From contig NZ_FRCQ01000008.1 in NCBI RefSeq assembly GCF_900142965.1, forward strand, positions 1-64,000: DNA of 64,000 bases, in the 5' to 3' direction. This DNA is from Rhizobacter sp. OV335. GTDB taxonomy: Bacteria > Pseudomonadota > Gammaproteobacteria > Burkholderiales > Burkholderiaceae_C. Positions 2,833 to 21,070 of the stretch are shown in pieces. Made by a program: the position numbers and the translations under genes. A model generated the notes under the pieces. It had not been told where the DNA came from and searched no databases. It saw only the letters and a program-made list of their open reading frames with translations. Each line of letters starts with the position of its first letter. Within the stretch, counting starts at the first letter, position 1.

Positions 2833-2900
2833 CGGGAAGCCTCCTCGTGGTCGCGCGATGGTAGTCGCTCGCCTTGGGGCGGTGACTGTATGCTTGCCCG

Positions 2901-3401
2901 ATGACCCCATCCCTGTTTCGCCGCGCGCTGTGCGGCACCGTGCTGTGCAGCGTCGTCGCCATCGCAGCGGCCGCCGACGCGCTACCCGACCTGAACGCCA
3001 CGCTCGCGGGCACCCGCTGGACGCTGCAGACGCTGGGCGGCGAGACGCAGGCCCAGGTGGCGGGCGGCACGCCGGTGCAACTGACGCTCGACGCCGCGTC
3101 GCAGCACCTGAGCGGCCACACCGGCTGCAACCGCCTGATGGGCCGCTTCGTGCAACGCGGCACGCTGCTGACGCTGTCGCCGCTGGGCACGACGCGCGCG
3201 GCCTGCGCCGAACCGGCGATGAAGCAGGAACAGGCGGTGCTGAAGATGCTGCGCGAGATCGACGGCTACCGCGTCGAGAACCGCACGCTCAGCCTGTTGC
3301 AGGGCGAGGTGGTGCGGGCGACGTGGAGTGCGCCGGCACCGAAAGAGGCCTCCAGGGAGGCCCCGAAGAAGACGGGCAAGCCGAAGCCGGCAGCACCCTG
3401 A
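2901..3401 (+). CDS. META domain-containing exported protein (HslJ-like)
   Basis: This 166-residue protein has an N-terminal signal peptide (about 1-26, ending AIAAAADA) and one META domain (about 30-145). It shows the family motif SGHTGCNRLMGRF near residue 72 and the conserved TTRAAC segment. META/HslJ proteins are periplasmic or lipid-anchored and in E. coli are linked to heat shock and novobiocin resistance; the molecular role is not known. The C-terminal tail (APKEASREAPKKTGKPKP) is lysine- and proline-rich and probably disordered. The start lies in the divergent gap with the flavoprotein gene; its ribosome site is weak. Confidence 0.82.
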   Translation: MTPSLFRRALCGTVLCSVVAIAAAADALPDLNATLAGTRWTLQTLGGETQAQVAGGTPVQLTLDAASQHLSGHTGCNRLMGRFVQRGTLLTLSPLGTTRAACAEPAMKQEQAVLKMLREIDGYRVENRTLSLLQGEVVRATWSAPAPKEASREAPKKTGKPKPAAP

Positions 3402-3977: not shown

Positions 3978-5210
3978 TCAGCCGAGCAGCTTCGCGACCG
4001 GATGCCCGCGCAGCCGGTGCGCCTGCGGCATGTCGCTGCCGAGCAGCGGGCGCAGGTACTGGCGGAACGCGTCGGTGACGGCATTTCCGCTGTCGGCGAT
4101 GAACACGTCCTCCATCACCCGCGTCTTGCCGGCCACCGCCTCCAGCGGCAGCAGCTCGTAGCGCACCGCGTAGTCGCCGCAGCGCTGGATCGCCACCGAG
4201 CCGTCGCGGTCGCCGCGCAGCGCGAACTGCAGCGCGGTCTCGCCAACCTCGCGCGCCTCGCGCTGGTCGACATCCGACACGCAGCCGAGGAACGAGCGCT
4301 GCAGGTAGCCGAAGGTGTCGCCGCGCACGCGCTTGATCTTCAGCTGGTCCTTGATCAGGTCGCACAGCAGGTCGGCCAGCGCGCCGGTGCCCGACAGCTG
4401 CAGGTTGCCGTGGGCGTCGCGCTCGACCCCGCCCCCGGCCTGTTGCACCAACTGCGCCGCGATCGGCTCGCCCGACGCGTCGTGGATACCCTCGGAGACG
4501 GCGATCACGCAGCGCCCGAGGCGCTGGTGCGTGGCGCGCACGTCGGCCAGGAAGCGCTCGCGCTCGAACACCCGCTCGGGCAGGTAGACGAGGTGCGGGC
4601 CGTCGTCCGGGTAGCGGGCGCCGAGCGCCGCGGCGGCCGTCAGGAAACCGGCATGCCGGCCCATCACGACGCCGAGGTAGACGCCCGGCAGCGCGGCGTT
4701 GTCGAGGTTCGCCCCGGCGAAGGCCTGCGCGACGAAGCGCGCCGCCGACGCATAGCCCGGCGTGTGGTCGTTGCCCACCAGGTCGTTGTCGATGGTCTTC
4801 GGCACGTGGATGCAGCGCAGCGCGTGGCCGGCCTGGCGGGCTTCGTCGCTGACGATGCGCACGGTGTCCGACGAATCGTTGCCGCCGATGTACAGGAAAT
4901 GGCTGATGCCGTGCGCCTGCAGCACCTTCAGGATCGCGCGGCAGTAGGCCAGGTCGGGCTTGTCGCGGGTGCTGCCGAGGGCCGACGCGGGCGTCGCGGC
5001 CACCGCCTCGAGCTGCTGCGGGGTCTCGCGCGCGAGGTCGACGAAATCCTCGTCGACGATGCCGCGCACGCCGTGGCGGGCGCCGTAGACCGCCGTCACC
5101 TCGGGGAAGCGCTGCGCCGCGAGCACCGCGCCGACCAGCGACTGGTTGATCACGGCGGTCGGGCCACCGCCCTGGGCGATCAGGATCCTGGCTTCGGGCA
5201 TCGTCGGCAT
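3978..5210 (-). CDS. pfp: Diphosphate-dependent 6-phosphofructokinase
   Basis: This 410-residue cytoplasmic glycolytic enzyme probably converts fructose 6-phosphate to the 1,6-bisphosphate with pyrophosphate as phosphoryl donor, a reversible step. Signatures seen are the GGGPTAVIN phosphate loop (14-22), GGNDSSDTV (109-117), PKTIDND (137-143) and MGRHAGFL (183-190). The lysine in PKTIDND and the acidic residue after GG are the features that distinguish pyrophosphate-using enzymes from ATP-PFK, which has PGTIDND. Length fits the family. The reading frame has candidate starts MPTMPEAR and MPEAR. No sugar-metabolism operon surrounds it. Confidence 0.88.
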   Translation of the reverse strand: MPTMPEARILIAQGGGPTAVINQSLVGAVLAAQRFPEVTAVYGARHGVRGIVDEDFVDLARETPQQLEAVAATPASALGSTRDKPDLAYCRAILKVLQAHGISHFLYIGGNDSSDTVRIVSDEARQAGHALRCIHVPKTIDNDLVGNDHTPGYASAARFVAQAFAGANLDNAALPGVYLGVVMGRHAGFLTAAAALGARYPDDGPHLVYLPERVFERERFLADVRATHQRLGRCVIAVSEGIHDASGEPIAAQLVQQAGGGVERDAHGNLQLSGTGALADLLCDLIKDQLKIKRVRGDTFGYLQRSFLGCVSDVDQREAREVGETALQFALRGDRDGSVAIQRCGDYAVRYELLPLEAVAGKTRVMEDVFIADSGNAVTDAFRQYLRPLLGSDMPQAHRLRGHPVAKLLG

Positions 5211-6513: not shown

Positions 6514-6840
6514 TCAGTGGCTGATCATCCAGGGCCGCTTCCCCGCGAATGACCGCGGCGCCGTCGCCGCCTCCCCGCTGCGCTTCGGCCCCGCGCAGCA
6601 CCCGCACCCCGCCGGATGCCGGTAGCGCGCCGATTCCTTCGGCTCATGCTGCGCCCGCTCGTTGGTCGCTAGCGCCAGCCGCCGCTCGGCCGGCATGTCG
6701 GCCAGCCGGGGTGCCGCCAGCCAGGCGCGCGCCGACGGCCTCTCGCAGCGCGGGCAATCGGCCGGCACATCGCGCTCGGCCATGCGCCGCAACGCATCGA
6801 ACGGCCCGCACTGCGGGCACTGGTAGTCGTAGGTCGGCAT
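6514..6840 (-). CDS. fmdB: FmdB family zinc-ribbon protein
   Basis: This 108-residue protein begins with the FmdB signature MPTYDYQCPQCG, and a second CPRC pair completes a zinc ribbon (about 8-34). The remainder contains another cysteine group (AGCGCCAG) near residue 80. FmdB proteins are associated with formamidase genes and have been proposed to regulate them, but their biochemical role is not settled. The gene is the last of the urt-fmd operon, 15 bases after fmdA. Confidence 0.9.
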   Translation of the reverse strand: MPTYDYQCPQCGPFDALRRMAERDVPADCPRCERPSARAWLAAPRLADMPAERRLALATNERAQHEPKESARYRHPAGCGCCAGPKRSGEAATAPRSFAGKRPWMISH

Positions 6841-6855
6841 GGTCTGCGCCCCGGC

Positions 6856-8085
6856 TCAGAGGTCCGGCGACAGCGGCATCTCCGGCCCGCCCTGGATGTA
6901 CTTCACCGGCCCGCTGGCGTTCGGCCGGATGTCGAAATCGAAGATCTGCGTCGGCAGCCACAGCGTCGCGCAGGAGTTCGGGATGTCGACCACGCCGCTG
7001 ATGTGCCCCTGCACCGGCGCGGTGCCGAGGATCGAGTAGGCCTGCGCCTTCGAGTAGCCGAACTTCGTCAGGTACTCGATCGCGTTCAGGCAGGCCTGGC
7101 GGTACGCGACGTTCACATCGAGGTAGTGCTGCTTGCCCTGCTCGTCGACCGAGATGCCCTCGAAGATCAGGTAGTCGTTGTAGTGCGGCGTGATCGGGCT
7201 CGGCCGGAAGATCGGGTTCTTGATGCCGTACATCGCCATCCCGCCCTTGATCACCTCGACCTTCATGTGCACCCAGCCGGCCATCTCGATCGCGCCGCAG
7301 AAGGTGATCTCGCCGTCGCCCTGGCTGAAGTGCAGGTCGCCGACCGACAGGCCCGCGCCCTTCACGTAGACCGGGAAGTAGATCTTCGAGCCGCGCGACA
7401 GGTCCTTGATGTCGCAGTTGCCGCCGTGCTCGCGCGGCGGCACGGTCCGCGCGCCCTCGGCCGCTGCCTTGGCCTTCGCGTCGCCGCCCAGCTTGCCCAG
7501 GTGGGCGGTGGCCGCGAACGGCGGGTTCGCCAGCGGCGGCACGCGGTCGGGCTCGGTCGCGATCAGGCCGAGCTCGCGCTCGTTCCACTTCTCGAGCAGC
7601 GACGGGTCCGGCAGGCAGCCGATCAGCCCGGGGTGGATCAGCCCGGCGTAGTTGACGCCCGGCACGTGGCGCGACCTCGTGAACATGCCCTGGATGTCCC
7701 AGATCGACTTCTGCGCGAACGGGAAGTGGTCGGTCAGGAAGCCGCCGCCATTCTTCTTCGAGAAGAAGCCGTTGAAGCCCCACAGGCTGTCGGCCTTGGC
7801 GCCGATGTCCAGCAGGTCGACCACCAGCAGGTCGCCCGGCTCGGCGCCGTGCACGCCGACCGGGCCCGACAGGAAGTGCACGATCGACAGGTCGATGTCG
7901 CGCACGTCGTCGGCGCTGTCGTTGTTCTGGATGAAGCCGCCGGTCCAGTCGTAGGTCTCCAGCACGAAGTCCTCGCCCGGCTTGACCCAGCAGGCCATCG
8001 GGATGTCCGGGTGCCAGCGGTTGTGGATCTGCTCGTTCTCGTACGGCGATTGCTTCAGGTCGACCTTGATCAGGGTGTCGGGCAT
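6856..8085 (-). CDS. fmdA: Formamidase (acetamidase/formamidase family)
   Basis: This 409-residue cytoplasmic enzyme hydrolyses formamide to formate and ammonia. The protein is full length and shows family blocks such as NRWHPDIPMACWVKPGEDFV near the N-terminus, VNYAGLIHPGLIGCLPD in the middle, GDLHFSQGDGEITFCGAIEM, and a C-terminal VDIPNSCATLWLP. It resembles FmdA of Methylophilus. Its position directly after five urt-type ABC transporter genes (23 bases after urtE) and before fmdB supports a route in which short amides are imported and then hydrolysed as a nitrogen source. Confidence 0.93.
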   Translation of the reverse strand: MPDTLIKVDLKQSPYENEQIHNRWHPDIPMACWVKPGEDFVLETYDWTGGFIQNNDSADDVRDIDLSIVHFLSGPVGVHGAEPGDLLVVDLLDIGAKADSLWGFNGFFSKKNGGGFLTDHFPFAQKSIWDIQGMFTRSRHVPGVNYAGLIHPGLIGCLPDPSLLEKWNERELGLIATEPDRVPPLANPPFAATAHLGKLGGDAKAKAAAEGARTVPPREHGGNCDIKDLSRGSKIYFPVYVKGAGLSVGDLHFSQGDGEITFCGAIEMAGWVHMKVEVIKGGMAMYGIKNPIFRPSPITPHYNDYLIFEGISVDEQGKQHYLDVNVAYRQACLNAIEYLTKFGYSKAQAYSILGTAPVQGHISGVVDIPNSCATLWLPTQIFDFDIRPNASGPVKYIQGGPEMPLSPDL

Positions 8086-8108
8086 GGTGGGGCTCCTGTG
8101 ACGAACAT

Positions 8109-8798
8109 TCAGACGGAAAGGAATTGCTTGATGCGCTGCACGTCGGTGCTCGCGCGCGGGCTCTCGTGCACCAGCCGCCCGCCTTCGATGACGAACAGCC
8201 GGTCGGCCACGTCCAGCGCGAAGCTCAGCACCTGCTCCGAGACGACGATCGTGATCTCGCGCCGCTTGCGGATCTCGTTCAGCGCGCGGGCGATGTCCTT
8301 GATGATCGACGGCTGGATGCCTTCGGTGGGCTCGTCGAGCAGCAGCACCTTCGGGTTGGTGACCAGCGCACGCGCGATCGCCAGCTGCTGCTGCTGGCCG
8401 CCCGACAGGTTGCCGCCCTTGCGCGAGCGCATCTCGAACAGCACCGGGAACAGCGCGTAGATCTCGTCGGGGATGCGCCGGCTCGCGGCGTTCTCCAGGC
8501 CGGTCTGGATGTTCTCCTCGACCGTCAGCGTCGGGAAGATCATGCGGCCCTGCGGCACGTAGGCCAGGCCCTTGCGCACACGCTGGAAGCTCTCGTCCTT
8601 CGTGACCTCACGGCCGTCGACCTCGATGCTGCCGGATTTGACCGGCAGCACGCCCATCAGGCTCTTGAACAGCGTGGTCTTGCCCATGCCGTTGCGGCCC
8701 ATGATCGCGACGGTCTCGTTCTTGTTCGCGTCGAAGTCGATGCCGTGCAGCGCCTCGCTCTGGCCGTAGGCGACGTGCAGGTTCCTGACGGTGAGCAT
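8109..8798 (-). CDS. urtE: Urea/short-chain amide ABC transporter ATP-binding protein UrtE
   Basis: This 229-residue cytoplasmic ATPase is of the LivF/UrtE type. It shows Walker A GRNGMGKTT, signature NLSGGQQQQLAIARAL, Walker B VLLLDEPTEG and the H-loop region replaced by VSEQ, as is common for LivF/UrtE. The frame continues upstream, but the ATG at 8798 (MLTVRNLHVAYGQSEALHG) begins the domain and follows GAGGA. It lies 10 bases after the urtD stop and is translated within the same operon. Confidence 0.92.
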   Translation of the reverse strand: MLTVRNLHVAYGQSEALHGIDFDANKNETVAIMGRNGMGKTTLFKSLMGVLPVKSGSIEVDGREVTKDESFQRVRKGLAYVPQGRMIFPTLTVEENIQTGLENAASRRIPDEIYALFPVLFEMRSRKGGNLSGGQQQQLAIARALVTNPKVLLLDEPTEGIQPSIIKDIARALNEIRKRREITIVVSEQVLSFALDVADRLFVIEGGRLVHESPRASTDVQRIKQFLSV

Positions 8799-8808
8799 CG
8801 TGGTGTCC

Positions 8809-9552
8809 TCAGTGGCCAAGGTAGACATCGATCACCTTCGGGTCGGCCTGCACCTGCTCCATCGAGCCTTCGGCAAGGATCTTTCCCTGGTGCATCACTG
8901 TCACCTTGTGGGCGATCTGCTTGACGAATTCCATGTCGTGCTCGATCACGATCATCGAGCGGCCCTTGCAGATGCGCTTCAGCAGCTCGGCCGTCAGCTC
9001 GCGCTCGCGCACGCTCATGCCGGCGATCGGCTCGTCGAGCATCAGCAGCTCCGGGTCCTGCATCAGCAGCATGCCGATCTCGAGCCACTGCTTCTGCCCG
9101 TGCGACAGCAGGCCGGCCTCCAGCGCGAGCTGCTCGGCCAGGCCGATCTCGGCGGCCACCGACTGCACCGCGTCGCGCACCTCGGCATCGCGCTGGAACG
9201 CCAGCGCCCCAAACACGCCACGCCCGCGCGGGAACGAGACCTCCAGGTTCTGGAACACGCTGAGGTTCTCGTAGATCGACGGCGTCTGGAACTTGCGGCC
9301 GATGCCGGCGCGCACGATCTGGTACTCCGGCAGCCGGCTCATCTCGGTGTTCTTGAACTTGATGCTGCCGCCGCTCGCGCGCGTCTTGCCGCAGATCAGG
9401 TCGAGCAGCGTGGTCTTGCCGGCGCCGTTCGGCCCGATGATCACGCGCAGCTCGTTCTTGTCGACGTACAGCGTCAGCGCGTCGATCGCCTTGAAGCCGT
9501 CGAACGAAACGGTCAGGTCTTCCACGGCCAGCACGAAGTCGGTGTTGCTCAT
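8809..9552 (-). CDS. urtD: Urea/short-chain amide ABC transporter ATP-binding protein UrtD
   Basis: This 247-residue ATPase is of the LivG/UrtD type, with Walker A GPNGAGKTT, signature LLSHGQKQWLEIGMLL, Walker B LLMLDEPIAG and H-loop VIEHDMEFV. The ATG overlaps the urtC stop codon (ATGA), so the two are translationally coupled. The SHGQKQWLEIG form of the signature is typical of UrtD and helps to separate this system from branched-chain amino-acid importers. It pairs with UrtE to energise the UrtBC permease. Confidence 0.93.
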   Translation of the reverse strand: MSNTDFVLAVEDLTVSFDGFKAIDALTLYVDKNELRVIIGPNGAGKTTLLDLICGKTRASGGSIKFKNTEMSRLPEYQIVRAGIGRKFQTPSIYENLSVFQNLEVSFPRGRGVFGALAFQRDAEVRDAVQSVAAEIGLAEQLALEAGLLSHGQKQWLEIGMLLMQDPELLMLDEPIAGMSVRERELTAELLKRICKGRSMIVIEHDMEFVKQIAHKVTVMHQGKILAEGSMEQVQADPKVIDVYLGH

Positions 9553-10676
9553 GACGCCCTCCAGGCCGTTTCGGTTCGCGGCGCACCCTTGCGCAGGCTC
9601 ATGCGCCGGATCCACCACGGCTTCAGCTTGTCGGCATACAACCCGGCCAGCCCGTCGGGGAACGCGAGCACCACGCCGAGGAACATCGCCGCCATCAGGA
9701 ACAGCCACAGGTCGGGCAGGCTCTCGGAGAAGTAGGTCTTGCCGAAGTTGACGAGCAGCGCGCCGTACACCGCACCCACCAGCGACATGCGCCCGCCGAC
9801 CGCCGCGAAGATCACCATCTCGATGCTCGGAACGATCCCCACCAGCGACGGCGACATGAAGCCCACCTGCAGCGTGAACAGCGCCCCGCCGATGGCCGAC
9901 AGCAGCGCCGCGAGGCAGAACGCGAACACGCGGAACATCGCGACGTCGTAGCCCGAGAAGCGCACGCGGTCTTCCTTGTCGCGCATCGCGAGCAGCAGCG
10001 TGCCGAGCTTGCTCTGCTGGATCCAGCGGCACACGACGATGGCCCCGATCAGCAGCGCCACCGTCAGGAAGTACAGGATGTACTTCGCGCTGTTGGTGCG
10101 GGTGTCCCAGCCGAGCAGCGTCTTCAGGTCGGTCATGCCGTTGATGCCGCCGGTGTAGCCCTGCTGGCCGATGATCAGCACCGTGAGGATCAGCGCCACT
10201 GCCTGCGTGATGATCGCGAAGTACACGCCGCCGACGCGCCGCTTGAACATCGCGAAGCCGATCACGAAGGCCAACAGCGTCGGCACCACCAGGATCGCGA
10301 GCAGCGCGAACGGGAAGTGGCGGAACGGCTCCCACCACAGCGGCAGCGCGGTGATCTGGTTCCAGTCCATGAAGTCGGGGATGCCCGGCGTCGACTGGAT
10401 CTTGGTGGTGATGGGGTCGCTCGCCTCGAGCTTCAGGAACATCGCCATGCCGTAGCCGCCGAGGCCGAAGAACACGCCCTGCCCCAGGCTCAGCACGCCG
10501 CCGTAGCCCCACAGCATCACCAGCCCGAGGGCCACGAACGCGTAGCTCAGGTACTTGCCGACCAGGTTGAGCCGGAACAGGTCGAAGGCCAGCGGGAACA
10601 CCACCGCCAGCACCACGGCCAGCAGCAGCACGCTGCCCATGCCGCTGCGGTCCAGCCACTGCCTGATGCGATTCAT
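9549..10676 (-). CDS. urtC: Urea/short-chain amide ABC transporter permease UrtC
   Basis: This 375-residue inner-membrane permease has about eight to ten hydrophobic segments and the LivM/UrtC-type block YGGVLSLGQGVFFGLGGYGM near residue 60. A loop after that block (ITTKIQSTPGIPDFMDWNQI) is typical of UrtC, which is longer than LivM. The start at 10676 follows an AGAGGC ribosome site. The 3' end overlaps urtD by four bases. Together with UrtB it forms the membrane channel for the substrate delivered by UrtA. Confidence 0.93.
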   Translation of the reverse strand: MNRIRQWLDRSGMGSVLLLAVVLAVVFPLAFDLFRLNLVGKYLSYAFVALGLVMLWGYGGVLSLGQGVFFGLGGYGMAMFLKLEASDPITTKIQSTPGIPDFMDWNQITALPLWWEPFRHFPFALLAILVVPTLLAFVIGFAMFKRRVGGVYFAIITQAVALILTVLIIGQQGYTGGINGMTDLKTLLGWDTRTNSAKYILYFLTVALLIGAIVVCRWIQQSKLGTLLLAMRDKEDRVRFSGYDVAMFRVFAFCLAALLSAIGGALFTLQVGFMSPSLVGIVPSIEMVIFAAVGGRMSLVGAVYGALLVNFGKTYFSESLPDLWLFLMAAMFLGVVLAFPDGLAGLYADKLKPWWIRRMSLRKGAPRTETAWRAS

Positions 10677-10708
10677 CGGATTGCCTCTGGGGGAAGGGAG
10701 AACAGCAG

Positions 10709-11623
10709 TCAACGCCGCACCTTGGCCGCGAACAGCCCCTGCGGCCGCAGCATCAGGATCAGCACGATCATCGACAGCGTCAGCACCTTGGCCATCGAGC
10801 CGGTGATGAAGAACTCGGCGATCGACTGCGTCTGCGCGATGCCGAACGCCGACACCACGGTGCCCAGCAGGCTGGCCGCGCCGCCGAAGGTGACGACCAG
10901 GAAGGCGTCGACGATGTAGAGCGAGCCGCTGGTCGGGCCGGTGGAGCCGATGGTGGTGAAGGCCGCGCCCGCGACGCCGGCGATGCCGCAGCCGATCGCG
11001 AAGGTGAGGCGGTCGGTCTGGCGGGTGTTGATGCCGGTCGCGTTGGCCATCACGCGGTTGGCCACCGTGGCGCGCACCCGCAGGCCCCAGCGCGAGCGGT
11101 ACAGCGCGAGCAGCACGCCGCCGGTGACGACCGCCGTCAGCGCCATCACGAACAGGCCGTTGATCGGGATGTCGAGGCCGGGCGATGGGGCCCACGAGCC
11201 CATCAGCCAGTCGGGCAGCGTGGGGCTCACCTCCTTCGCGCCGAAGGTCGAGCGGAAGATCTGCTGCATGCCCAGCGACAAGCCCCAGGTGGCGAGCAGC
11301 GTGTCGAGCGGGCGGCGGTACAGGTGGCGGATGAACAGCCACTCGACCGCCCAGCCGGCGGCGAACGCGAAGCCGAATGCCGCGACGATCGCGACCGGGA
11401 AGTACGCGCCGATCAGCTTCGGCGCGTAGCTCTCGGCCAGGTGCGAGAACAGGTAGATCGTGTAGGCGCCGATCGTCATGAACTCGCCGTGCGCCATGTT
11501 GATGACGCCCATCTGGCCGAAGATGATCGCGAGGCCCAGGCCCATCAGCAGCAGCACCGAGAACAGGCTCAGGCCGGCGAAGCCTTGCATCAGCGAGATG
11601 TTCAGGATTTCGGAGAAGGTCAT
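10709..11623 (-). CDS. urtB: Urea/short-chain amide ABC transporter permease UrtB
   Basis: This 304-residue permease is of the LivH/UrtB family, with the hallmark GLAIIFGQMGVINMAHGEFM at residues 28-48 and about eight membrane segments. The open frame extends upstream through a repeated intergenic sequence (translating as a VEPVEG-like peptide), which is an artefact; the true start is the ATG at 11623 (MTFSEILNISL). The proteins before and after it in the operon are UrtA and UrtC. It shares the operon promoter but is separated from urtA by a palindromic repeat that may lower its expression. Confidence 0.92.
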   Translation of the reverse strand: MTFSEILNISLMQGFAGLSLFSVLLLMGLGLAIIFGQMGVINMAHGEFMTIGAYTIYLFSHLAESYAPKLIGAYFPVAIVAAFGFAFAAGWAVEWLFIRHLYRRPLDTLLATWGLSLGMQQIFRSTFGAKEVSPTLPDWLMGSWAPSPGLDIPINGLFVMALTAVVTGGVLLALYRSRWGLRVRATVANRVMANATGINTRQTDRLTFAIGCGIAGVAGAAFTTIGSTGPTSGSLYIVDAFLVVTFGGAASLLGTVVSAFGIAQTQSIAEFFITGSMAKVLTLSMIVLILMLRPQGLFAAKVRR

Positions 11624-11652
11624 GGCGTGTCCCGGGTGGCGCTCGTGAGTGG

Positions 11653-11741
11653 GCCCTTCGACAGGCTCAGGGGATCCTTCGACAGGCTCAGGACGAACGG
11701 AATCTCCCCTCACACCGTTCGGGCTGAGCCTGTCGAAGACC
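11653..11741. repeat. Dispersed REP-like palindromic repeat between urtA and urtB
   Basis: Two direct copies of CTTCGACAGGCTCAGG (starting near 11655 and 11677) are followed by an inverted copy ending GAGCCTGTCGAAG (11725-11737). The second copy extends to GACGAACGG and its partner begins CCGTTCGGG, so transcripts can fold into a stem of more than 15 pairs. TTCGACA-GCTCAGG repeats are scattered in many betaproteobacterial genomes. Placed after the binding-protein gene, the structure could stabilise the urtA message or attenuate transcription into the permeases. Confidence 0.85.
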
Positions 11742-11750
11742 TTTGTCTGA

Positions 11751-13016
11751 CTATTGATAGCCCTTCGGGAACGGGTTCGGCTCAATGAGTTCCGGCGACT
11801 CCGCGACCACCTTGAACTGCCCGTCCGCCTGCGCCATGCCGATGCGCGTCTTGCTCCACAGGTGGTGGTTCTCGTGCACCTTCACGTAGCCCTCGGGCGC
11901 GGTCTTCAGCTCGATGCCGGCCGACGCCGCGGCGATCTTGTCGACGTCGAAGCTGCCGGCCTTCTCGACCGCGGCCTTCCACAGCCACGGGCCCAGGTAG
12001 CCGGCCTGCGTCACGTCGCCGATCACCGAGCTCGGGCCGTACTTGGCGCGGAACGCCGACACGAAGGCCTTGTTGTTCGCGTTGTCCAGCGACTGGAAGT
12101 ACTTCATCGACGCATAGAAGCCGGCCATGTTCTCGCCGCCGATGCCCAGCACCTCGTCCTCGGTCACCGAGATCGTCAGCAGGAACTGCTTGTCGGCGGT
12201 GACGCCGGCGGCCTTCAGCTGCTTGTAGAACGCGACGTTCGAGCCGCCGACCACCGCGACGAAGATGCAGTCGGGCTTGGCGACCTTGATCTTGTTGATC
12301 AGCGAGTTGAAATTGGTGTGGCCCAGCGGGTAGTACTCCTCGCCGACCACCTTGCTGCCGCTCAGGTGCCCCTCGATGTGCTTGCGGCCGATCTTCATCG
12401 AGGTGCGCGGCCAGATGTAGTCGGAGCCGACCAGGAAGTAGGTCTTGGCCTTCTTCTCCTTGGCCGCCCAGTCGAGGCCCCACAGGATCTGCTGCGTCGC
12501 CTCCTGACCGGTGTAGATCACGTTCTTGCTCTGCTCCAGGCCTTCGTAGAAGGTCGGGTAATAGAGCATGCCGTTCTCCTTCTCGAAGATCGGCAGCACC
12601 GCCTTGCGCGAGGCCGAGGTCCAGCAGCCGAACACGCAGGCCACGCGGTCGTTGACCAGCAGCTTCTTCGACTTCTCGGCGAAGGTCGGCCAGTCGGACG
12701 CACCGTCTTCCTTGATCACCTTGATCTTGCGGCCCAGCACGCCGCCCATCGCGTTGATCTGGTCGATCGCGAGCTGCTCGGCCTGGATCGAGCCGGTCTC
12801 CGAGATCGCCATCGTGCCGGTGCCCGAATGCAGCTGCCCGACCGTCACCTCGGTGTCGGTGACCGCCAGCTTCGTCGTGTTGACCTTGGCGGTGGGCGCG
12901 GCCTGCGCAAGCGCCAGGCCCGAGAGACCGGCCAGCGGCAGCGCGGCGGCGCCTTGCAGCAGCCGGCGGCGCTGCATCGAATCGGGCTGGAGATCGTCAT
13001 TGCGGTCGTGGGACAT
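11751..13016 (-). CDS. urtA: Urea/short-chain amide ABC transporter substrate-binding protein UrtA
   Basis: This 421-residue periplasmic binding protein is of the LivK/UrtA/AmiC family. The N-terminus has a twin-arginine-like signal (MQRRRLLQGAAALPLAG, about 14-30) and a probable cleavage site after ALAQA. Typical UrtA blocks follow: VGQLHSGTGTMAISE, CVFGCWTSASRKAVLP and YPTFYEGLEQSKNVIYTGQE. The start at 13016 is preferred over 13064 because GGAG precedes it and the Tat signal then has normal length. It is the first gene of the operon, facing the transporter-fused kinase across a 226-base gap. Confidence 0.93.
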   Translation of the reverse strand: MSHDRNDDLQPDSMQRRRLLQGAAALPLAGLSGLALAQAAPTAKVNTTKLAVTDTEVTVGQLHSGTGTMAISETGSIQAEQLAIDQINAMGGVLGRKIKVIKEDGASDWPTFAEKSKKLLVNDRVACVFGCWTSASRKAVLPIFEKENGMLYYPTFYEGLEQSKNVIYTGQEATQQILWGLDWAAKEKKAKTYFLVGSDYIWPRTSMKIGRKHIEGHLSGSKVVGEEYYPLGHTNFNSLINKIKVAKPDCIFVAVVGGSNVAFYKQLKAAGVTADKQFLLTISVTEDEVLGIGGENMAGFYASMKYFQSLDNANNKAFVSAFRAKYGPSSVIGDVTQAGYLGPWLWKAAVEKAGSFDVDKIAAASAGIELKTAPEGYVKVHENHHLWSKTRIGMAQADGQFKVVAESPELIEPNPFPKGYQ

Positions 13017-13242
13017 GGAAAGGCTCCGGACAGTTGAGGGCATCGTCATGACGCACGGCACCAAGCCTGTGCGGTGCCGCGTTGTTCACGCTGGTGCCGA
13101 CTGTCCCGGATGGCGCGCGCAACCCGAATACGTCAATCAACGTAGCTGCCTGCGCACGCCGCACGGCGACACTCGCGCGGCAAGCAGCGGGAGCGCTTCT
13201 TGCGTGCAGGAGCCGACACTGCCGTCGTTGTCGGAGAAACCG
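13017..13242. promoter_or_regulatory. Divergent control region urtA / NCS1-kinase with GGCACC dyad
   Basis: The 226-base gap separates the divergent starts of urtA and the kinase gene and must hold both promoters. A perfect 7-base inverted repeat, CGGCACC (13056-13062) and GGTGCCG (13073-13079), lies 40 bases upstream of urtA, and another GGTGCC follows at 13093-13098. GCAC/GTGC half-sites recall NtrC boxes, but the 10-base spacer is longer than the consensus. I found no convincing sigma-54 or sigma-70 element. The dyad is a candidate operator for the adjacent response regulator or NtrC; this is inference. Confidence 0.45.
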
Positions 13243-16200
13243 GTGTCCGTGGCCACGCAAAAGATCTTTCGCATCCGCCGGGACTACAACACCTGGGTCG
13301 GCAACGAGACGCTCGAGGACTACGCGCTGCGCTACACGCCGCGCAGCTTCCGCAAGTGGAGCGAGTTCCGCGTCGCGAACACCGCGTTCGGCGCCACCTC
13401 GTTCCTCGCGCTCGAGGCCATCGGCGGTTCGATCGCGATCGGCTACGGCTTCTCGAACGCGCTGTGGGCGATCCTCGTCGTCGGGCTGATCACCTTCCTG
13501 ACCGGGCTGCCGATCAGCTACTACGCCGCGAAGTACGGCGTCGACATGGACCTGCTGACGCGCGGCGCCGGCTTCGGCTACCTCGGCTCGACGCTGACCT
13601 CGCTGGTCTACGCGAGCTTCACCTTCATCTTCCTCGCGCTCGAGGCGGCGATCCTCGCGCTCGCGCTGCAGATGTACTTCGACTGGCCGCTGTCGCTGTG
13701 CTACCTGCTGTCGTCGCTCGGCATCGTGCCGCTGGTGATGCACGGCATCACGCTGATCTCGCGGCTGCAGCTGTGGACGCAGCCGCTGTGGTTGATCCTG
13801 CTGGTCTGCCCCTACGCCTTCGTGCTCGCGAAGAACCCGCAGGTGTTCGTCGATTTCACCGGGCTGGTCGGCCGCGCCTCGGGCAGCAACGGCTTCAGCT
13901 GGCTGATGTTCGGCACCGCCGCCACGGTCGCGTTCTCGCTGGTGGTGCAGATCGGCGAGCAGGTCGACTACCTGCGCTTCCTGCCCGAGAAGACCAAGGC
14001 CAACCGGCGCCGCTGGTGGGCCGCGGTGCTGGTGGCCGGGCCCGGCTGGATCGTGCCGGGCATGGTGAAGATGCTGGGCGGCGCCTTCCTCGCCTTCCTC
14101 GCGCTGCAGCACCAGATCCCGACCGAGAAGGCGGTCGAGCCGACGCAGATGTACCTGGCCGGCTTCGGCTACGTGTTCGACAACCCGGCCTGGGTCCTCG
14201 GCGCGACCACGCTGTTCGTGCTGGTGTCGCAGCTGAAGATCAACCTGACCAATGCCTACGCCGGCTCGCTCGCGTGGTCGAACTTCTTCGCGCGGCTGAC
14301 GCACAGCCACCCGGGCCGCGTGGTGTGGCTGGTGTTCAACGTGCTGATCGCGGTGCTGCTGATGACGCTGGGCGTGTTCGAGGCGCTGGAGCGCGTGCTC
14401 GGGCTGTACAGCAACGTCGCGATCGCCTGGGTGGGCGCGCTCGTCGCCGACCTGGTGATCAACAAGCCGCTCGGCTGGAGCCCGCGCCACATCGAGTTCA
14501 AGCGCGCCCACCTGTACGACATCAACCCGGTCGGGCTGGGCGCGATGCTGAGCGCGGCAGTGCTCGCGATCGTCGCGTACGCCGGCGCGCTCGGGGCCGC
14601 GGCGCAGGCCTTCGCGCCGTTCATCGCGCTGGCCACCGCGATGCTGGTGTCGCCGCTGCTCGCCTGGGCGACGCGCGGCCGCTGGTACCTGGCGCGGCAG
14701 GACACCACCCGCTGGGCGCCCGGCCAGAGCGTGACCTGCGCGGTGTGCGACACCGCGTTCGAGTCGGAGGACATGGCGCACTGCCCGGCCTACGGCGCGC
14801 CGATCTGCTCGCTGTGCTGCACGCTGGAGTCGCGTTGCCACGACCGCTGCAAGACCGATTCGCGCGCGGCCGAGCAGGTCAGCGCGGTGCTGGCCGCGGT
14901 GCTGCCGCGGCGGCTCGCGTCGCGGGTGAACTTCCGCGTCGCGCACTACCTGGTGGTGGCGGCGTCGTTGATCGGCCTGCTGGCGGTGATCCTCGGCGTG
15001 GTCTACGACCAGGAGGGCGTGCTGCGCGCGACCGCGCAGGCAGCGTTGAAGGCGCCGCTGCTGAAGGTGTTCGCGCTGCTGTCGCTGGCCGCGGCGGTCG
15101 GCGCCTGGTGGGTGGTGCTGGGCAGCGAGAGCCGGCACATGGCGCAGGACGAATCGAACCGACAGAACCAGCTGCTGACGAAGGAGATCGACGCGCACCG
15201 CCGCACCGACGCCGCGCTGCAGGCCGCGAAGGACCTGGCCGAGGCCGCCAACCAGGCGAAGACGCGCTACGTGGCCGGCATGACGCACGAGCTGCGCACA
15301 CCGCTGAACAGCATCCTCGGCTATGCGCAGATCCTGCTGAAGGACGAGCAGGTGCAAGGCGTGCGGCGCGCGTCGGTCGACACCATCCACCGCAGCGGCG
15401 AGCACCTGCACGGGCTGGTCGACGGGCTGCTCGACCTGGCGCGCATCGAGGCCGGCCGGCTGCGGCTGGACCGGGCGCCGCTCCCGATGCACGAGTTCCT
15501 CGACGACCTGGTGCGCATGGTGGCGCCGCAGGCGGAAGCGAAGGGGCTGGTCTTCACGCTGCAGACCAGCGGCCGCGTGCCCGACCATGTGAACGCCGAC
15601 GCGAAGCGGCTGCGCCAGATCCTGATCAACCTGCTGAGCAACGCGGTGCGCTTCACCGACCGCGGCAGCGTGACGCTGAAGCTGGACTACCGGCTGGAGC
15701 TGGCGCGCTTCGAGGTGGTCGACACCGGCATCGGCATCGCGGCGCAGGACCAGGAGCGCATCTTCCTGCCGTTCGAGCGCGGCAGCGCCGGGCGGCGCAC
15801 CGGCGAGCCGGGCACCGGCCTCGGGCTGACCATCACTCATCTGCTGACCCAGCTGATGGGCGGCGAGCTGTCGCTGAAGAGCGCGCCCGGCCAGGGCAGC
15901 ACCTTCACCGCGCGGCTGTACCTGCGCGAGATCAGCGCGCCGATGCTGCCGCGGCGCACGCACCGGCCGGTCACCGGCTACCTCGGACCGCGGCGCAGCC
16001 TGCTGGTGGTGGACGACCAGCCGACGCAGCGCCAGATGCTGGCCGGGCTGCTGATGCCGCTGGGCTTTCGCATCCGCGAGGCGGCAAGCGGGCGCGAGTG
16101 CCTGGAGAGCGTGCTCGACGATTGCCCGGATGCCGTGCTGCTCGACGTCTCGATGGACGACATGGACGGCTGGCAGACCGCGCGCCAGATCCGCGCGGCC

Positions 16201-16635
16201 GGGCTGCTGCACGTGCCGATCCTGATGGTGTCGGCGAACGCGTTCGAGAACCAGGCCGACAAGCTGGCCGCGGCCGGCTGCCAGGGTTTCGTCGACAAGC
16301 CGGTGATCGAATCGGAGCTGCTCGACATGCTGCAGCGGCACCTGCAGATCGAGTGGCTGGCCGAGCTGGCGCTGCCGAACTGGGCCACGGCCGGTGCACC
16401 CGGGCCGGTCGGCGCGACGGCGCTGCCGGCGGAGTTGATCGGCGACCTGATCCGGCTGGTGCGGCTCGGGCACCTGCAGGGCGTGCAGGCGGCGCTCGAT
16501 GCGGCGACCGCGGAGCACCCGGCCGCGCAGGCCGAACTGCGCGCGATGCGGCTGCTGGCGGAGCGCTTCGAGCTCGATGCGCTGCTGGACCGGCTGACGC
16601 AGGCCCTGCGCGACGTGTCGACGGAGGCGCTGTGA
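13243..16635 (+). CDS. Hybrid histidine kinase with NCS1 transporter-like sensor and receiver
   Basis: This 1130-residue inner-membrane signalling protein has, in order: an NCS1 (cytosine/purine/allantoin permease) domain with about 12 membrane segments (10-490); a cysteine-rich zinc-binding-like stretch (about 497-530, CAVC, CSLCC, CHDRC); two more membrane segments (565-625); a short coiled coil; HisKA with H682 (MTHELRTPLNS); HATPase with NLLSNAVRF, DTGIGI and GTGLGLTI; and a receiver with D968 and K1019. The GTG start at 13243 follows GGAG at six bases; no better start exists. The last codons overlap the response regulator gene (GTGA). It is divergent from urt-fmd, which suggests sensing of a nitrogen compound. 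Whether it still transports is unknown. Confidence 0.9.
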   Translation: MSVATQKIFRIRRDYNTWVGNETLEDYALRYTPRSFRKWSEFRVANTAFGATSFLALEAIGGSIAIGYGFSNALWAILVVGLITFLTGLPISYYAAKYGVDMDLLTRGAGFGYLGSTLTSLVYASFTFIFLALEAAILALALQMYFDWPLSLCYLLSSLGIVPLVMHGITLISRLQLWTQPLWLILLVCPYAFVLAKNPQVFVDFTGLVGRASGSNGFSWLMFGTAATVAFSLVVQIGEQVDYLRFLPEKTKANRRRWWAAVLVAGPGWIVPGMVKMLGGAFLAFLALQHQIPTEKAVEPTQMYLAGFGYVFDNPAWVLGATTLFVLVSQLKINLTNAYAGSLAWSNFFARLTHSHPGRVVWLVFNVLIAVLLMTLGVFEALERVLGLYSNVAIAWVGALVADLVINKPLGWSPRHIEFKRAHLYDINPVGLGAMLSAAVLAIVAYAGALGAAAQAFAPFIALATAMLVSPLLAWATRGRWYLARQDTTRWAPGQSVTCAVCDTAFESEDMAHCPAYGAPICSLCCTLESRCHDRCKTDSRAAEQVSAVLAAVLPRRLASRVNFRVAHYLVVAASLIGLLAVILGVVYDQEGVLRATAQAALKAPLLKVFALLSLAAAVGAWWVVLGSESRHMAQDESNRQNQLLTKEIDAHRRTDAALQAAKDLAEAANQAKTRYVAGMTHELRTPLNSILGYAQILLKDEQVQGVRRASVDTIHRSGEHLHGLVDGLLDLARIEAGRLRLDRAPLPMHEFLDDLVRMVAPQAEAKGLVFTLQTSGRVPDHVNADAKRLRQILINLLSNAVRFTDRGSVTLKLDYRLELARFEVVDTGIGIAAQDQERIFLPFERGSAGRRTGEPGTGLGLTITHLLTQLMGGELSLKSAPGQGSTFTARLYLREISAPMLPRRTHRPVTGYLGPRRSLLVVDDQPTQRQMLAGLLMPLGFRIREAASGRECLESVLDDCPDAVLLDVSMDDMDGWQTARQIRAAGLLHVPILMVSANAFENQADKLAAAGCQGFVDKPVIESELLDMLQRHLQIEWLAELALPNWATAGAPGPVGATALPAELIGDLIRLVRLGHLQGVQAALDAATAEHPAAQAELRAMRLLAERFELDALLDRLTQALRDVSTEAL

Positions 16636-17492
16636 GCGCGTCGCCGGTGGTGCTGGTGGTCGACGACGCGCCGCAGTCGCTGGGCGCGCTGTGCGCATCG
16701 CTCGAGGCCGAGGGCTACACGGTGCTGGTCGCGCGCGACGGCGAGTCGGCGCTGGCGCGGCTGGACCTCGCGACGCCCGACGCGATCCTGCTGGACGCGC
16801 TGATGCCGGGGCTGTCGGGCTTCGAGACCTGCCGGCGCATCAAGCAGGACCCGGCGCTGTCGCACATCCCGGTGATCTTCATGACCGGCCTGTCGGAGAC
16901 GCCGCACATCGTCGAGGGCTTCGAGAGCGGTGGTGTCGACTACGTCGTGAAGCCGGTGCGCGCGCAGGAGGTGCTGGTGCGGCTGGCCACGCACGTGCGC
17001 AATGCGCGCGCGGTGCGGCTGGCGCGCGCGGCGGTGGACGTCGGCGGGCACGGCGTGCTGGTGCTCGACGCGCAGGGGCGCGTCGCGTGGCGCTCGCCGC
17101 AGGCGGCGGCGTGGCTGCGCGAGTTCCACCCGGAAGGCCTGCCGCCGGCGTGGGCGAGCGACGGCCCGCTGGAACACCACAGCGCCGCGGCCGACGGCCG
17201 GGTGCTGACGGTGCGACACGCCGGCGCGGTCGGGCTGGGCGAACGCATGCTGCTGCTGCGGGTGCAGGCCGCGAGCGATGCGGCGCCGACGCGCCTCAGC
17301 ACCGCGTCGCTGACGCCGCGCGAGACCGAGGTGCTGTCGTGGATCGCGAAGGGCAAGACCAACCGCGACGTCGGCGAGATCCTCGGCATGAGCCCGCGCA
17401 CCGTGAACAAGCACCTGGAGCATGTGTTCGAGAAACTCGGCGTGGAGACGCGCGCCGCGGCGGCGGCGCTGGCGAGCCGGGAGCTCGGCTGA
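16632..17492 (+). CDS. LuxR-family response regulator, partner of the NCS1 kinase
   Basis: This 286-residue DNA-binding regulator has a canonical receiver (about 5-125, VVDDAP, phosphoacceptor in ILLDALMPG, MTG, and VVKPV with the switch lysine), a middle region of about 70 residues with PAS-like character (GVLVLDAQGRVAWRS), and a C-terminal LuxR helix-turn-helix (LTPRETEVLSWIAKGKTNRD, then SPRTVNKHLEHVFEKL). The GTG start overlaps the kinase stop codon and is preceded by GGAGG, so both are made from one transcript. It is the likely output of the transporter-linked kinase and may bind the urtA upstream dyad. Confidence 0.9.
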   Translation: MSASPVVLVVDDAPQSLGALCASLEAEGYTVLVARDGESALARLDLATPDAILLDALMPGLSGFETCRRIKQDPALSHIPVIFMTGLSETPHIVEGFESGGVDYVVKPVRAQEVLVRLATHVRNARAVRLARAAVDVGGHGVLVLDAQGRVAWRSPQAAAWLREFHPEGLPPAWASDGPLEHHSAAADGRVLTVRHAGAVGLGERMLLLRVQAASDAAPTRLSTASLTPRETEVLSWIAKGKTNRDVGEILGMSPRTVNKHLEHVFEKLGVETRAAAAALASRELG

Positions 17493-17562
17493 GACGGGCC
17501 GTTCTCGCGCGCTTCACGCGGACTTCGCGTTCGCGTCGCGACCGACCGGCACATTCGCCGGC

Positions 17563-19275
17563 ATGCACGACATCTCGCCCCTCCCCGCCCCCTCGGTGCC
17601 GGCCGCGTCAGGCTGGTGGACCTCGCGCCTTCAGGCCCTCGACTTCGCGTGGCGTGCCGAGGGCCTGCGCTGGATGCGCCGCGGTCGCGACCTGGTCGAC
17701 CGATGGAACGGCACCCGCTTCGCGACCACCCGATCGACATCGCAGGACCCGGTGCGTGCCGAGTGCATCACGCCGTTGTGGACGCAACACGCGCCGCACG
17801 AATGGCCGCTGACCGCCGGCAAGGTCCACAACCTGCGCACGGCCGCCTCTCGGCTCGACGGGCTCGTCGTGGCACCCGGTGAGGTCTTCAGCTTCTGGCA
17901 TGCGATCGGCGCCCCGACCCGTCGCCGCGGCTTCGTCCCCGGCCGGGAGTTGCGCGAGGGGTGCCTGATCGCGAGCATCGGCGGCGGCCTGTGCCAGCTG
18001 TCGAATGCGCTGTATGCCGTGGCGGTGGATGCCGGGGCGCGGATCGTCGAGCGCCATCCGCATTCGCGTGCCGTGCCGGGCTCGCAGGCCGAGGCAGGGC
18101 GCGACGCGACGGTGTTCTGGAACTACCTCGACCTGCGCTTCGCGCTGCCGCAGCGTGTCGTCGTCGAGGCGCGGCTCGACGGCGAGCGCTTGATCGTCCG
18201 GCTGCGCGGTGCATCGCCGCCGGCGCGCTCGGCACGGCCCGTTCCGATCGAGCTCGGCCGCCGGCCGCCGGCGCACGACTGCCTGGACTGCGCGCAAGCG
18301 GACTGCCTGCGCCGCGTGGGGTCGCGCCCCGTCGGCGAACGGGTCGCCGTGATGCCGGTGGCCGGCTGGCCGGAGTTCGACACCTGGATCGCCGCTCGCG
18401 GCATCCGCCTTCGCGCGACAGGGCCGAACTGGCCGACCGGCCTGACCGAGCGCTGGCATCGGCTCGCGGCGCGCGCCTGCCGCCATCGGCCGGCCCGGCG
18501 CCAGCGTCACCTGATCGCCGCCGACGATGCGCGTGCCTCGGCTTGGCTCGCGCGGGTGCCGATCGAGGCCGACGAACTGATCGTTCCGGTCGATGCGCTG
18601 GCCGAGCTGCAGCGCCGCGGCGCGCTCGGCGGGCGCCGCGTGACGGTGATGATGACCCGGTCGCCGCTGCGCATGCTGCATCAGCAGCTGGACGGCCAGG
18701 CCGGCGAACCGACCGCGGCCGGCCTGCGCGAGTACCGTGCGCCAGACTGGCGCGTCGATGCCGAGTGGAAGGCGCTGCGTGGCGCGGTTCGCGTGCTGAC
18801 GCCGCACCATGCGGTCGCCCGCTGGTTGCGGACTCGCGGCCTCCATCAGGTGGGCCTTCTCGACTGGGACCGACCCGCGGCAGCGCCTTCGGCGTGCGGC
18901 GGAACGCTGCTGTTTCCGGCGTCGTCGCTGGCGCGCAAGGGCGCACCGGAACTGCGCGAGGCCTGCCGGGCGCTCGGGTTGCCGCTGGCGGTGCTCGGCC
19001 GCGCCAGCGAGTCGCCCGGCTTCTGGCGTGGCATCGAACAGGTGCCGCTCGATGCGGAGGACCCGTGGCGCGGCGTCGGTGCCGTGGTGCTGCCGGCGCA
19101 TGTCGAGCATGCGCCGCGCTGGCTGCTTCAGGGCCTCGCGCGCGGCCTGCCGGTCATCGCAACGCCGGCGTGCGGGTTGGATCCCCGCACACCGGGCCTG
19201 CGCCTGGTGCCGGCCGGCGACACGCTCGCGCTGACGCTGGCCCTCTACGAGACGGCCGCCTCAGACCACCGGTGA
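17563..19275 (+). CDS. VanW family protein fused to a glycosyltransferase-like C-terminal domain
   Basis: This 570-residue protein has a VanW domain at about 85-215 (APGEVFSFWHAIGAPTRRRG, then EGCLIASIGGGLCQLSNALY and HPHSRAVPG). A segment with a cysteine group (DCLDCAQADCLRR) follows, and the last 280 residues resemble a GT-B type glycosyltransferase in layout (LLFPASSLARKGAPELREA, then a C-terminal LARGLPVIATPACG). VanW proteins are linked to glycopeptide resistance clusters but have no established enzymatic role. No signal peptide is obvious. It starts 70 bases after the response regulator with a weak ribosome site, so the start is moderately certain. Its 3' end overlaps the convergent pectate lyase gene by 15 bases. 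Confidence 0.75.
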   Translation: MHDISPLPAPSVPAASGWWTSRLQALDFAWRAEGLRWMRRGRDLVDRWNGTRFATTRSTSQDPVRAECITPLWTQHAPHEWPLTAGKVHNLRTAASRLDGLVVAPGEVFSFWHAIGAPTRRRGFVPGRELREGCLIASIGGGLCQLSNALYAVAVDAGARIVERHPHSRAVPGSQAEAGRDATVFWNYLDLRFALPQRVVVEARLDGERLIVRLRGASPPARSARPVPIELGRRPPAHDCLDCAQADCLRRVGSRPVGERVAVMPVAGWPEFDTWIAARGIRLRATGPNWPTGLTERWHRLAARACRHRPARRQRHLIAADDARASAWLARVPIEADELIVPVDALAELQRRGALGGRRVTVMMTRSPLRMLHQQLDGQAGEPTAAGLREYRAPDWRVDAEWKALRGAVRVLTPHHAVARWLRTRGLHQVGLLDWDRPAAAPSACGGTLLFPASSLARKGAPELREACRALGLPLAVLGRASESPGFWRGIEQVPLDAEDPWRGVGAVVLPAHVEHAPRWLLQGLARGLPVIATPACGLDPRTPGLRLVPAGDTLALTLALYETAASDHR

Positions 19276-21045: not shown

Positions 21046-21070
21046 GTTGTCTGCCTCCTGATGTTGTGAA

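Follow-up and report, generated by a model that had tools for sequence, protein, structure and literature searches.

The locus described here lies in a 64,000-nucleotide stretch of contig NZ_FRCQ01000008.1 of Rhizobacter sp. OV335 (genome size 6.9 Mb). This whole stretch is referred to as the window, and all coordinates are positions in it. A cluster of genes for a urea-type ATP-binding cassette (ABC) transporter and a formamidase, urtABCDE-fmdAB, is encoded here divergently from a hybrid histidine kinase with an NCS1-like sensor domain, which is coupled to a LuxR-type response regulator. The features of the locus, from left to right, are the following.

6514..6840, minus strand: fmdB, FmdB-family zinc-ribbon protein (NCBIfam NF053663 and TIGR02605, both above cut-off)
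6856..8085, minus strand: fmdA, formamidase (NCBIfam equivalog NF045496, 761 bits, cut-off 500)
8109..8828, minus strand: urtE, ABC ATPase (TIGR03410, 341.8 bits, cut-off 285.8)
8809..9534, minus strand: urtD, ABC ATPase, start approximate (model boundary inside a longer open reading frame, ORF; TIGR03411, 374.5 bits, cut-off 304.1)
9549..10592, minus strand: urtC, permease, start approximate (TIGR03408, 443 bits, cut-off 296.2)
10709..11590, minus strand: urtB, permease, start approximate (TIGR03409, 396 bits, cut-off 250.3)
11754..13016, minus strand: urtA, substrate-binding protein (TIGR03407, 522.4 bits, cut-off 492.75; start codon from ORF reading)
13129..13144, no strand: probable operator of the LuxR-type regulator, TACGTCAATCAACGTA, inverted repeat TACGT-N6-ACGTA (sole exact copy in the 6.9-Mb genome)
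13189..13204, plus strand: possible sigma-54-type -24/-12 element of the kinase-regulator operon (score 8 of 12, not above chance in the window itself)
13243..16635, plus strand: NCS1-like sensor hybrid histidine kinase, 1130 residues, GTG start (Pfam, hhalign, AlphaFold2, Foldseek)
13315..14673, plus strand: NCS1-like 12-helix domain of the kinase, residues about 25-477 (hhalign probability 99.2; fold match to CodB and Mhp1)
14728..14853, plus strand: eight-cysteine, possibly zinc-binding, linker domain, residues about 496-537 (conserved cysteines)
14932..15102, plus strand: two-helix membrane hairpin before the kinase core, extent approximate (AlphaFold2 helices 564-594 and 596-661)
15256..15456, plus strand: HisKA domain, residues 672-738, phospho-acceptor H682 (PF00512)
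15598..15924, plus strand: HATPase_c domain, residues 786-894 (PF02518, E-value 2.7e-26)
16003..16332, plus strand: receiver domain, residues 921-1030, with D968 (PF00072, E-value 2.8e-22)
16632..17492, plus strand: LuxR/NarL-type response regulator, start inside the GTGA that overlaps the kinase stop (PF00072 and PF00196, the GerE helix-turn-helix)

A first-pass annotation of this DNA had read urtABCDE-fmdAB on one strand and, facing it, a 1130-residue kinase with HisKA, HATPase and receiver modules coupled through GTGA to a LuxR-type regulator. This layout is borne out in all parts, with NCBIfam models above cut-off at the expected places on the minus strand, Pfam matches to the three kinase modules at 13243-16635 on the plus strand, and a regulator that starts at 16632 and contains both a receiver and a GerE helix-turn-helix domain. 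In particular, UrtA, UrtB, UrtC, UrtD and UrtE are all assigned to the Urt urea ABC transporter by curated models (5 of 5 above cut-off), with urea or amides as the putative substrate. Judged from its conserved residues, the kinase is a hybrid histidine kinase: the HisKA histidine H682 is present in 161/161, N800 of the ATPase N box in 159/159 and the receiver aspartate D968 in 156/156 of the aligned sequences that reach the respective position.

Of 300 order genomes searched, 50 contain the sensor domain at E<=1e-10 (one of them, G164, only as a fragment), and the presence of the domain goes along with that of fmdA (33/50 genomes with the sensor vs 7/250 without) and of urease (48/50 vs 73/250). 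The kinase and fmdA genes are no more than 25 kb apart in 31 of the 33 genomes that have both. In a phylum-wide sample, 46 of 349 genomes match at E<=1e-5, some of them weakly to stand-alone proteins. For the analysis of neighbourhoods, 164 kinase loci were assembled from the order sample (51 loci), from named genomes (80 loci, the best of at least 567 relatives) and from the phylum-wide sample outside the order (33 loci); this set excludes the window itself, the G164 fragment and the phylum-sample kinase matches G492, G513 and G523. All counts here and below include close relatives and are uncorrected for relatedness, and two of the loci, L033 and L120, are identical in sequence. Neighbour labels denote presence in the fetched stretch, which extends up to about 10 kb on each side, at identity thresholds that we set.

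Lack of neighbourhood conservation had been named beforehand as grounds for giving up the proposed link between the kinase and the amide genes. The neighbourhood is conserved: urt, fmdA or urease genes are found near the kinase in 148/164 loci (43/51 in the order, 73/80 in named genomes, 32/33 outside the order), with 19 loci labelled solely by a UrtA-like match of 30-55% identity, and the loci with these neighbours span more than one class of the phylum. The functions common to the neighbour genes are those of urea ABC transporter homologues, formamidase, aliphatic amidase and urease. The most frequent arrangement is that of the window, in which the kinase gene is divergent from urtA at a distance of less than 1500 bp (71 of 132 loci, window included). 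Elsewhere urt-fmd genes lie downstream of the kinase (L032) or upstream in the same direction (L043, L044, L074), or the kinase gene comes last in operons that also contain fmdA, amidase and urease genes (L068, L069, L075, L078, L079), and in 11 of the 80 named loci ureA is divergent from the kinase and within 0.2 kb of it. On a quick tree with 171 rows, of which six represent relatives that are not in the kinase set, the fmd/urt label changes 11 times vs 52.9 times in shuffles, a difference to which kinship would contribute anyway, and the urease-side and formamidase-side kinases form partly separate groups.

The intergenic regions between urtA (>=60% identity) and a divergent kinase gene less than 1500 bp away, 71 in number with the window and the identical L033 and L120 included, share a conspicuous palindrome. 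The inverted repeat TACGT-N6-ACGTA, with the operator consensus A-TACGTCAATTGACGTA, is present in 67/71 of them, compared with at most 3/71 for any dyad in five shuffles, and the remaining four (L108, L136, L141, L143) contain near matches. In the Rhizobacter genome the exact palindrome occurs once, at 13129-13144; a search with an 18-base version allowing up to 3 mismatches also returns a single hit, with none for the control. Across the 164 loci there are 101 exact copies, of which 97 are located within 700 bp upstream of urtA (81), fmdA (13) or amiE (3); these zones account for 6.5% of the bases. Within the zones the controls give 0/2 for the reversed pattern, no sites for spacers N5 and N8, and 0/1 for N7. 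Separate fmdA units carry the site in front of them in L229, L230 and L232, and a second site is found in L227 and L228; no site within two mismatches was found at the urtA of L232. A drifted site, TACG-N8-CGTA, is seen in 13 of the 14 regions that come from another class of the phylum, mostly in the form TACGC-N6-GCGTA. For 60 kinases that do not belong to the divergent urtA set, the upstream DNA was searched in the same way and has no dyad in common (best 7/60, shuffles up to 3). At the level of whole genomes, the exact pattern occurs at least once in 116 of the 300 order genomes, including 28/33 of those with both sensor and fmdA and 9/17 of those with the sensor alone. Thus, it is the position of the copies rather than their mere presence that is telling, and the palindrome at 13129-13144 is a probable operator of the LuxR-type regulator.

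Further support for this assignment comes from the regulator itself. Its residue 259 is presumably the equivalent of the base-contacting Lys188 of NarL, in the recognition helix. We tabulated this residue against the site for 148 sequences (the window and 147 loci), taking as the regulator the best BLAST match in the locus and assuming adjacency, and defined the canonical site as TACGT[CT]-N4-[GA]ACGTA, a form chosen after seeing the data. In loci with fmdA or the amide-type urt, the canonical site accompanies 63 of the 75 regulators with Asn259, vs 1 of the 19 with Asp, Thr or Ser at this position; over all 148 regulators the canonical site accompanies 68/107 of those with Asn259. Regulators with Lys259 or His259, 16 of which are encoded beside urease, have no exact site of any kind (0/20). 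The residue and the site change together in separate groups, namely L046, L048 and L049 (TACGTA...), L143, and two groups of the phylum sample. This covariation, uncorrected for kinship, is what binding of the site by this regulator would lead one to expect. Together with the position of the sites, it makes a strong case for a regulatory link of the kinase-regulator pair to urt/fmd, the LuxR-type partner very probably controlling urea/amide genes via the conserved DNA site. The proposal of the first-pass annotation that the pair controls amide/urea uptake and formamide hydrolysis is thus supported, as far as such comparative data go, by the operator upstream of urtA, fmdA and amiE and by the covariation of the recognition helix. 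The scope of that proposal holds for urt/fmd and appears too narrow with respect to formamide, given the second clade encoded beside urease.

Several observations weigh against this interpretation. Apart from the canonical site having been defined with the data in view, 12 of the 75 Asn259 loci lack it, and there are exceptions to the covariation, with Asn259 accompanied by TACGC (L209, L218) or by one TACGC half (L223, L239), Thr259 by a near-canonical site (L238) and Ser259 by a canonical one (L042). Outside the divergent urtA set the exact site is present in just 8/61 loci. The everted repeat ACGTA-N6-TACGT is also concentrated in the upstream zones (11/13); these copies come, as far as the aligned regions show, from half-site arrays beside the main site. 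The exact pattern occurs somewhere in 79 of 250 sensor-less order genomes (2/7 of those with fmdA), and the reversed control pattern three times in the Rhizobacter genome, so that rarity alone proves nothing. The same genome encodes a second kinase of this family, on contig C19 (locus L054, about 9492-12935), beside urease and followed by type IV pilin genes; no regulator match was found near this kinase, and the urease-side locus contains neither TACGT-N6-ACGTA nor an operator under two half-site mismatches. Finally, urt, fmdA or urease genes were not found near the kinase in 16/164 loci, where the fetched DNA spans about 20 kb in several cases and is short in some (L056, L060, L062, L063, L065, L076, L077, L081, L148, L154, L155, L167, L168, L171, L183 and L215, the stretch of which ends inside a urtA match of 62% identity).

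Two of these cases can be noted in their own right. L076 and L077 are divergent members of the family with open frames of about 1410 residues, on about 20 kb without urt, fmdA or urease, and perhaps respond to another ligand. The kinase of L183 comes from a record named Phormidium, a cyanobacterium, and is found without urt, fmdA or urease nearby, which might reflect horizontal transfer or contamination.

The kinase-regulator operon might itself be subject to nitrogen control. Scored out of 12 against a consensus that we take to be that of the sigma-54 -24/-12 element, an element with a score of at least 9 faces the kinase in 50 of the 71 intergenic regions, compared with about 6/71 in shuffles and 4/71 facing urtA. 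Because the element of the window, at 13189-13204, scores 8, equal to the best one facing urtA, nitrogen control is offered as a suggestion for the family, based on these promoter sequences.

The sensor domain is a divergent NCS1 domain that is invisible to Pfam. No Pfam family matches any part of kinase residues 1-671; PF02133 in particular does not match the kinase at E<=10 or any protein of the 6.9-Mb genome at E<=0.001, and searches of PDB sequences with the single protein and with a profile found no relative. Because the PF02133 searches of genome and protein were negative, the kinship with NCS1 is established by other means. When a profile of residues 1-490 from 51 family members is compared by hhalign with 25 PF02133 proteins of this order, the alignment covers residues 25-473, with a probability of 99.2 and an E-value of 3e-19 (reversed control 0.1), whereas plain sequence comparison with PF02133 proteins is weak (best BLASTP E-value 0.001). 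An AlphaFold2 model of residues 1-662 built from 51 sequences has a predicted local distance difference test score (pLDDT) of 84.8 and a predicted TM-score (pTM) of 0.82. Its five top matches in a Foldseek library of 350,542 PDB chains are all CodB or Mhp1 chains, with TM-scores normalized by target length of 0.79 for CodB (7qoa) and 0.72 for Mhp1 (4d1a), ahead of other LeuT-fold families. The sixth match, and the first from a non-NCS1 family, is the sodium-coupled sialic acid symporter 5nv9 (0.64 by target length), which we take to be SLC5-type; as it ranks below five NCS1 chains, the sensor is not assigned to the SLC5-type domains characteristic of the SLC5/STAC kinases.

A stand-alone relative from the phylum search, L240 (L240:4950-6443; 31% identity; sensor similarity E 4e-40), does match PF02133 (35.9 bits, cut-off 23.5); no such match was obtained for L241, the second stand-alone relative submitted to Pfam. 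The nearest relative of this kind, L240 precedes genes for a carbon-nitrogen hydrolase and a UrtA-like binding protein, and another, L244, is located among hydantoinase-type and biotin carboxylase genes. The twelve membrane helices, cysteine-rich linker and two further helices of the first-pass annotation fit, by manual count, the helix list of the AlphaFold2 model. Its term 'NCS1-type permease' stands as far as profile-profile and fold kinship are concerned and does not coincide with Pfam's label. The phrase 'whole NCS1 transporter' is an overstatement: the predicted domain is very divergent and lacks the canonical sodium ligands and the tryptophan of transmembrane helix 3 (TM3).

The comparison of substrate sites proposed in that annotation was made by alignment with Escherichia coli CodB, not from coordinates, using the CodB residues given in PMC9379551. 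The two TM8 Ser/Thr sodium ligands and the TM3 tryptophan of the NCS1 family are not found in the aligned sensor: the CodB sodium-site residues Thr278/Thr279 correspond to Lys332/Ile333, and Trp108 to Phe130 (Phe in 148/165, Leu in 17/165 aligned sensors). Gln105 of CodB corresponds to Thr127, and the TM6 aromatic residue is replaced by an aliphatic one, in a register uncertain by one residue. Polar residues are fixed or nearly so, with K332, Q236, E239, Q240, N334 and N337 present in 165/165 and E134 in 164/165 sensors. The ring-stacking site thus appears weakened, one side being mostly Phe and the other aliphatic, amid these fixed polar residues, a combination into which a small solute without an aromatic ring, for instance urea or an amide, would fit well. 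Having lysine at a sodium-ligand position may render the domain sodium-independent. In five stand-alone relatives (L240, L241, L242, L243, L244) the equivalent of K332 is arginine and the glutamate E134 is retained; in alignment these proteins resemble a branch of NCS1 that lacks the usual sodium ligands.

The NCS1-like domain is followed by a domain with the pattern C-x2-C-x11-C-x7-C-x2-CC-x5-C-x3-C (window 14728-14853), whose cysteines C499, C502, C514, C522, C525, C526, C532 and C536 are each present in 163-165 of 165 aligned sequences; L081, which stops at residue 529, was removed from one family alignment (A1) ahead of the counts. It is predicted to form a small strand-and-helix fold, followed by a two-helix hairpin that runs into the kinase. 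No Pfam family matches the domain, and a search of 100 order genomes returned, outside this kinase family, only weak matches (E-value 0.0018 or worse). It may deserve a domain entry of its own, and the eight cysteines might bind zinc.

Taken together, these data make it likely that the kinase and the LuxR-type regulator constitute a two-component system dedicated to urea/short-amide nitrogen nutrition, in which the receptor regulates the genes for uptake and hydrolysis of its own ligand. In this scheme, the NCS1-like domain would bind urea or a short-chain amide, which most likely reaches it from the cell exterior; binding would be signalled via the eight-cysteine domain and the two-helix hairpin and would change the activity of the kinase core; phosphate would reach the LuxR-type regulator, which would bind the palindrome at 13129-13144 and activate urtABCDE-fmdAB. 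Architecture, fold, neighbourhood, operator and covariation with the regulator are all read from sequence, and from them we infer the identity of the ligand, the direction of sensing, and activation rather than repression. Urea or a short amide is suggested as the ligand because genes for urea/amide transport and hydrolysis are common to the loci. A bolder proposal, which we put at just short of even, is that these proteins form a new and widespread class of receptor kinases, derived from an NCS1 transporter that was turned into a sodium-independent urea/amide receptor with a lysine for a sodium ligand, a polar pocket in exchange for the nucleobase-stacking tryptophan and TM6 aromatic residue, and an eight-cysteine coupling domain. 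If this is true, CbrA has reached a similar lysine-for-sodium solution independently, and bacteria possess a dedicated urea/amide receptor kinase.

The most serious alternative, possible but less likely than not, is that the NCS1-like domain still functions in transport and acts as a transceptor: it would carry the solute and signal its transport or occupancy to the kinase, in the manner of CbrA and histidine. The predicted retention of the full 12-helix fold speaks for it, as does CbrA, which according to PMC13022988 has a lysine at the Na2 site and transports histidine without a sodium gradient, K332 being invariant here (165/165). Transport would, however, not be needed next to a dedicated ABC importer, and the CodB sodium ligands Thr278/Thr279 and Trp108 are replaced.

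Alternatively, the signal could be a classical NCS1 substrate, such as allantoin, hydantoin, cytosine or uracil, or another urea-yielding ureide, with urt-fmd as a downstream target. NCS1 proteins do carry such compounds, and the stand-alone L244 is encoded beside hydantoinase-type genes. This is nevertheless unlikely, given that the 20 annotated cluster representatives of recurrent neighbours comprise urease genes, amidase, FmdB and unrelated genes, with no purine or pyrimidine catabolic gene among them, and that the aromatic pair that holds the rings in CodB is not conserved as such. Still less probable is a role of the eight-cysteine domain as a sensor of metal (nickel, zinc) or of redox state, with the NCS1-like domain as a mere anchor. 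The near-invariance of eight cysteines, the restriction of good matches to this kinase family in the 100 order genomes and the proximity of the second clade to the nickel enzyme urease would fit such a role, but the putative NCS1 pocket residues are conserved at least as strictly as the cysteines, the predicted strand-hairpin-helix would suit structural zinc, and we know of no nickel link of the formamidase FmdA. It is very improbable that some other regulator, such as one of general nitrogen control, binds the palindrome and that the kinase-regulator pair is just a neighbour: a site upstream of urtA does not by itself name its binder and two of the seven sensor-less fmdA genomes hold an exact copy somewhere, but the other five hold none, the copy in the 6.9-Mb genome is single, and the site covaries with regulator residue 259.

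The reading as a urea/amide two-component system bears on a subject that, to our knowledge, is little studied, namely how bacteria detect urea and small amides before uptake. It predicts the receptor, the regulator, the operator, the recognition residue and the target genes, and biosensors for urea or formamide are possible uses. It would also add another transporter family to SLC5 and Amt as families recruited for kinase sensors, so that the path from transporter to receptor could be addressed in parallel systems.

Several further genes of the window were noted. A VanW-like protein is encoded just downstream of the regulator (ORF 17422-19275, plus strand; the true start is probably later than the ORF start), and no match to this gene was found in the 51 order loci. 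Farther away, Pfam matches alone indicate a glutamate synthase-domain protein (1204-2910, minus strand), a phosphofructokinase-family protein (3978-5210, minus strand) and a pectic acid lyase-like protein (19261-21087, minus strand).

The system is likely a urea/amide sensor and apparently has not been described. Transporter-derived receptor kinases are already known; the NCS1 base and the defined candidate operator appear to be new. Among the listed titles and abstract openings of the open-licence literature, in which the operator sequence was not searched for, there was neither an NCS1-kinase nor a study of urt/fmd control by a two-component system, and one genome paper notes, without studying them, a hybrid kinase and a LuxR gene beside urtABCDE (PMC13296017). 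The closest structural relatives of the sensor domain are CodB and Mhp1, its best PDB fold matches, from which it differs in being fused to a kinase, in being unmatched by PF02133, and in the replacement of the sodium threonines and Trp108. With respect to gene content, the fmd system of Methylophilus methylotrophus is similar in that it reportedly combines a formamidase with a transporter that depends on a binding protein and takes up short amides and urea.

Among regulatory systems, AmsS/AmsR of Acinetobacter baumannii resembles the present pair in having 14 predicted membrane helices, a hybrid kinase and a LuxR-type partner; a word search of the main text found no NCS1, cytosine, urea, formamid- or symporter (PMC10112286), and AmsS, likened here by description only, may or may not be a relative. 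The ammonia sensor GrtK/GrtR was considered as a counterpart and rejected, since it consists of a PilS-like sensor and a Fis-type regulator (PMC12918730). In Ks-Amt5 a transporter likewise serves a kinase as the receptor for a nitrogen compound, but the fold is Amt, the ligand ammonium and the host an anammox bacterium (PMC5764959, PMC8534201).

The transporter-fused kinases known so far include CbrA, CrbS and RpuS of the SLC5/STAC type (PMC13022988, PMC5715377, PMC9100948). In RpuS/R of Sinorhizobium, which acts on a pyruvate symporter, a transporter-fused kinase controls a transporter gene, as proposed here, but the kinase is of the SLC5/STAC type (PMC9100948). CbrA shares with the present kinase the fusion of a LeuT-fold transporter and a lysine at the sodium site (K196, which fills Na2, histidine transport being sodium-independent; PMC13022988), whereas its fold is SLC5 with STAC and PAS domains; because the likeness of the lysines is at the level of alignment, not of structure, the parallel between K332 and CbrA K196 is suggestive. 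CrbS/R is similar in combining a transporter domain on a hybrid kinase with a LuxR-type partner and an inverted-repeat operator in target promoters, and in controlling the uptake and use of a small nutrient, acetate (PMC5715377). The two systems differ in the fold of the sensor, SLC5 there and NCS1-like here, in the operator and the target genes, and in the eight-cysteine domain and two-helix hairpin that are found here instead of a recognised STAC region. By analogy, CrbS/R is the known system nearest in its working to the one described here, with a hybrid kinase, a LuxR-type partner and an inverted-repeat operator in common.

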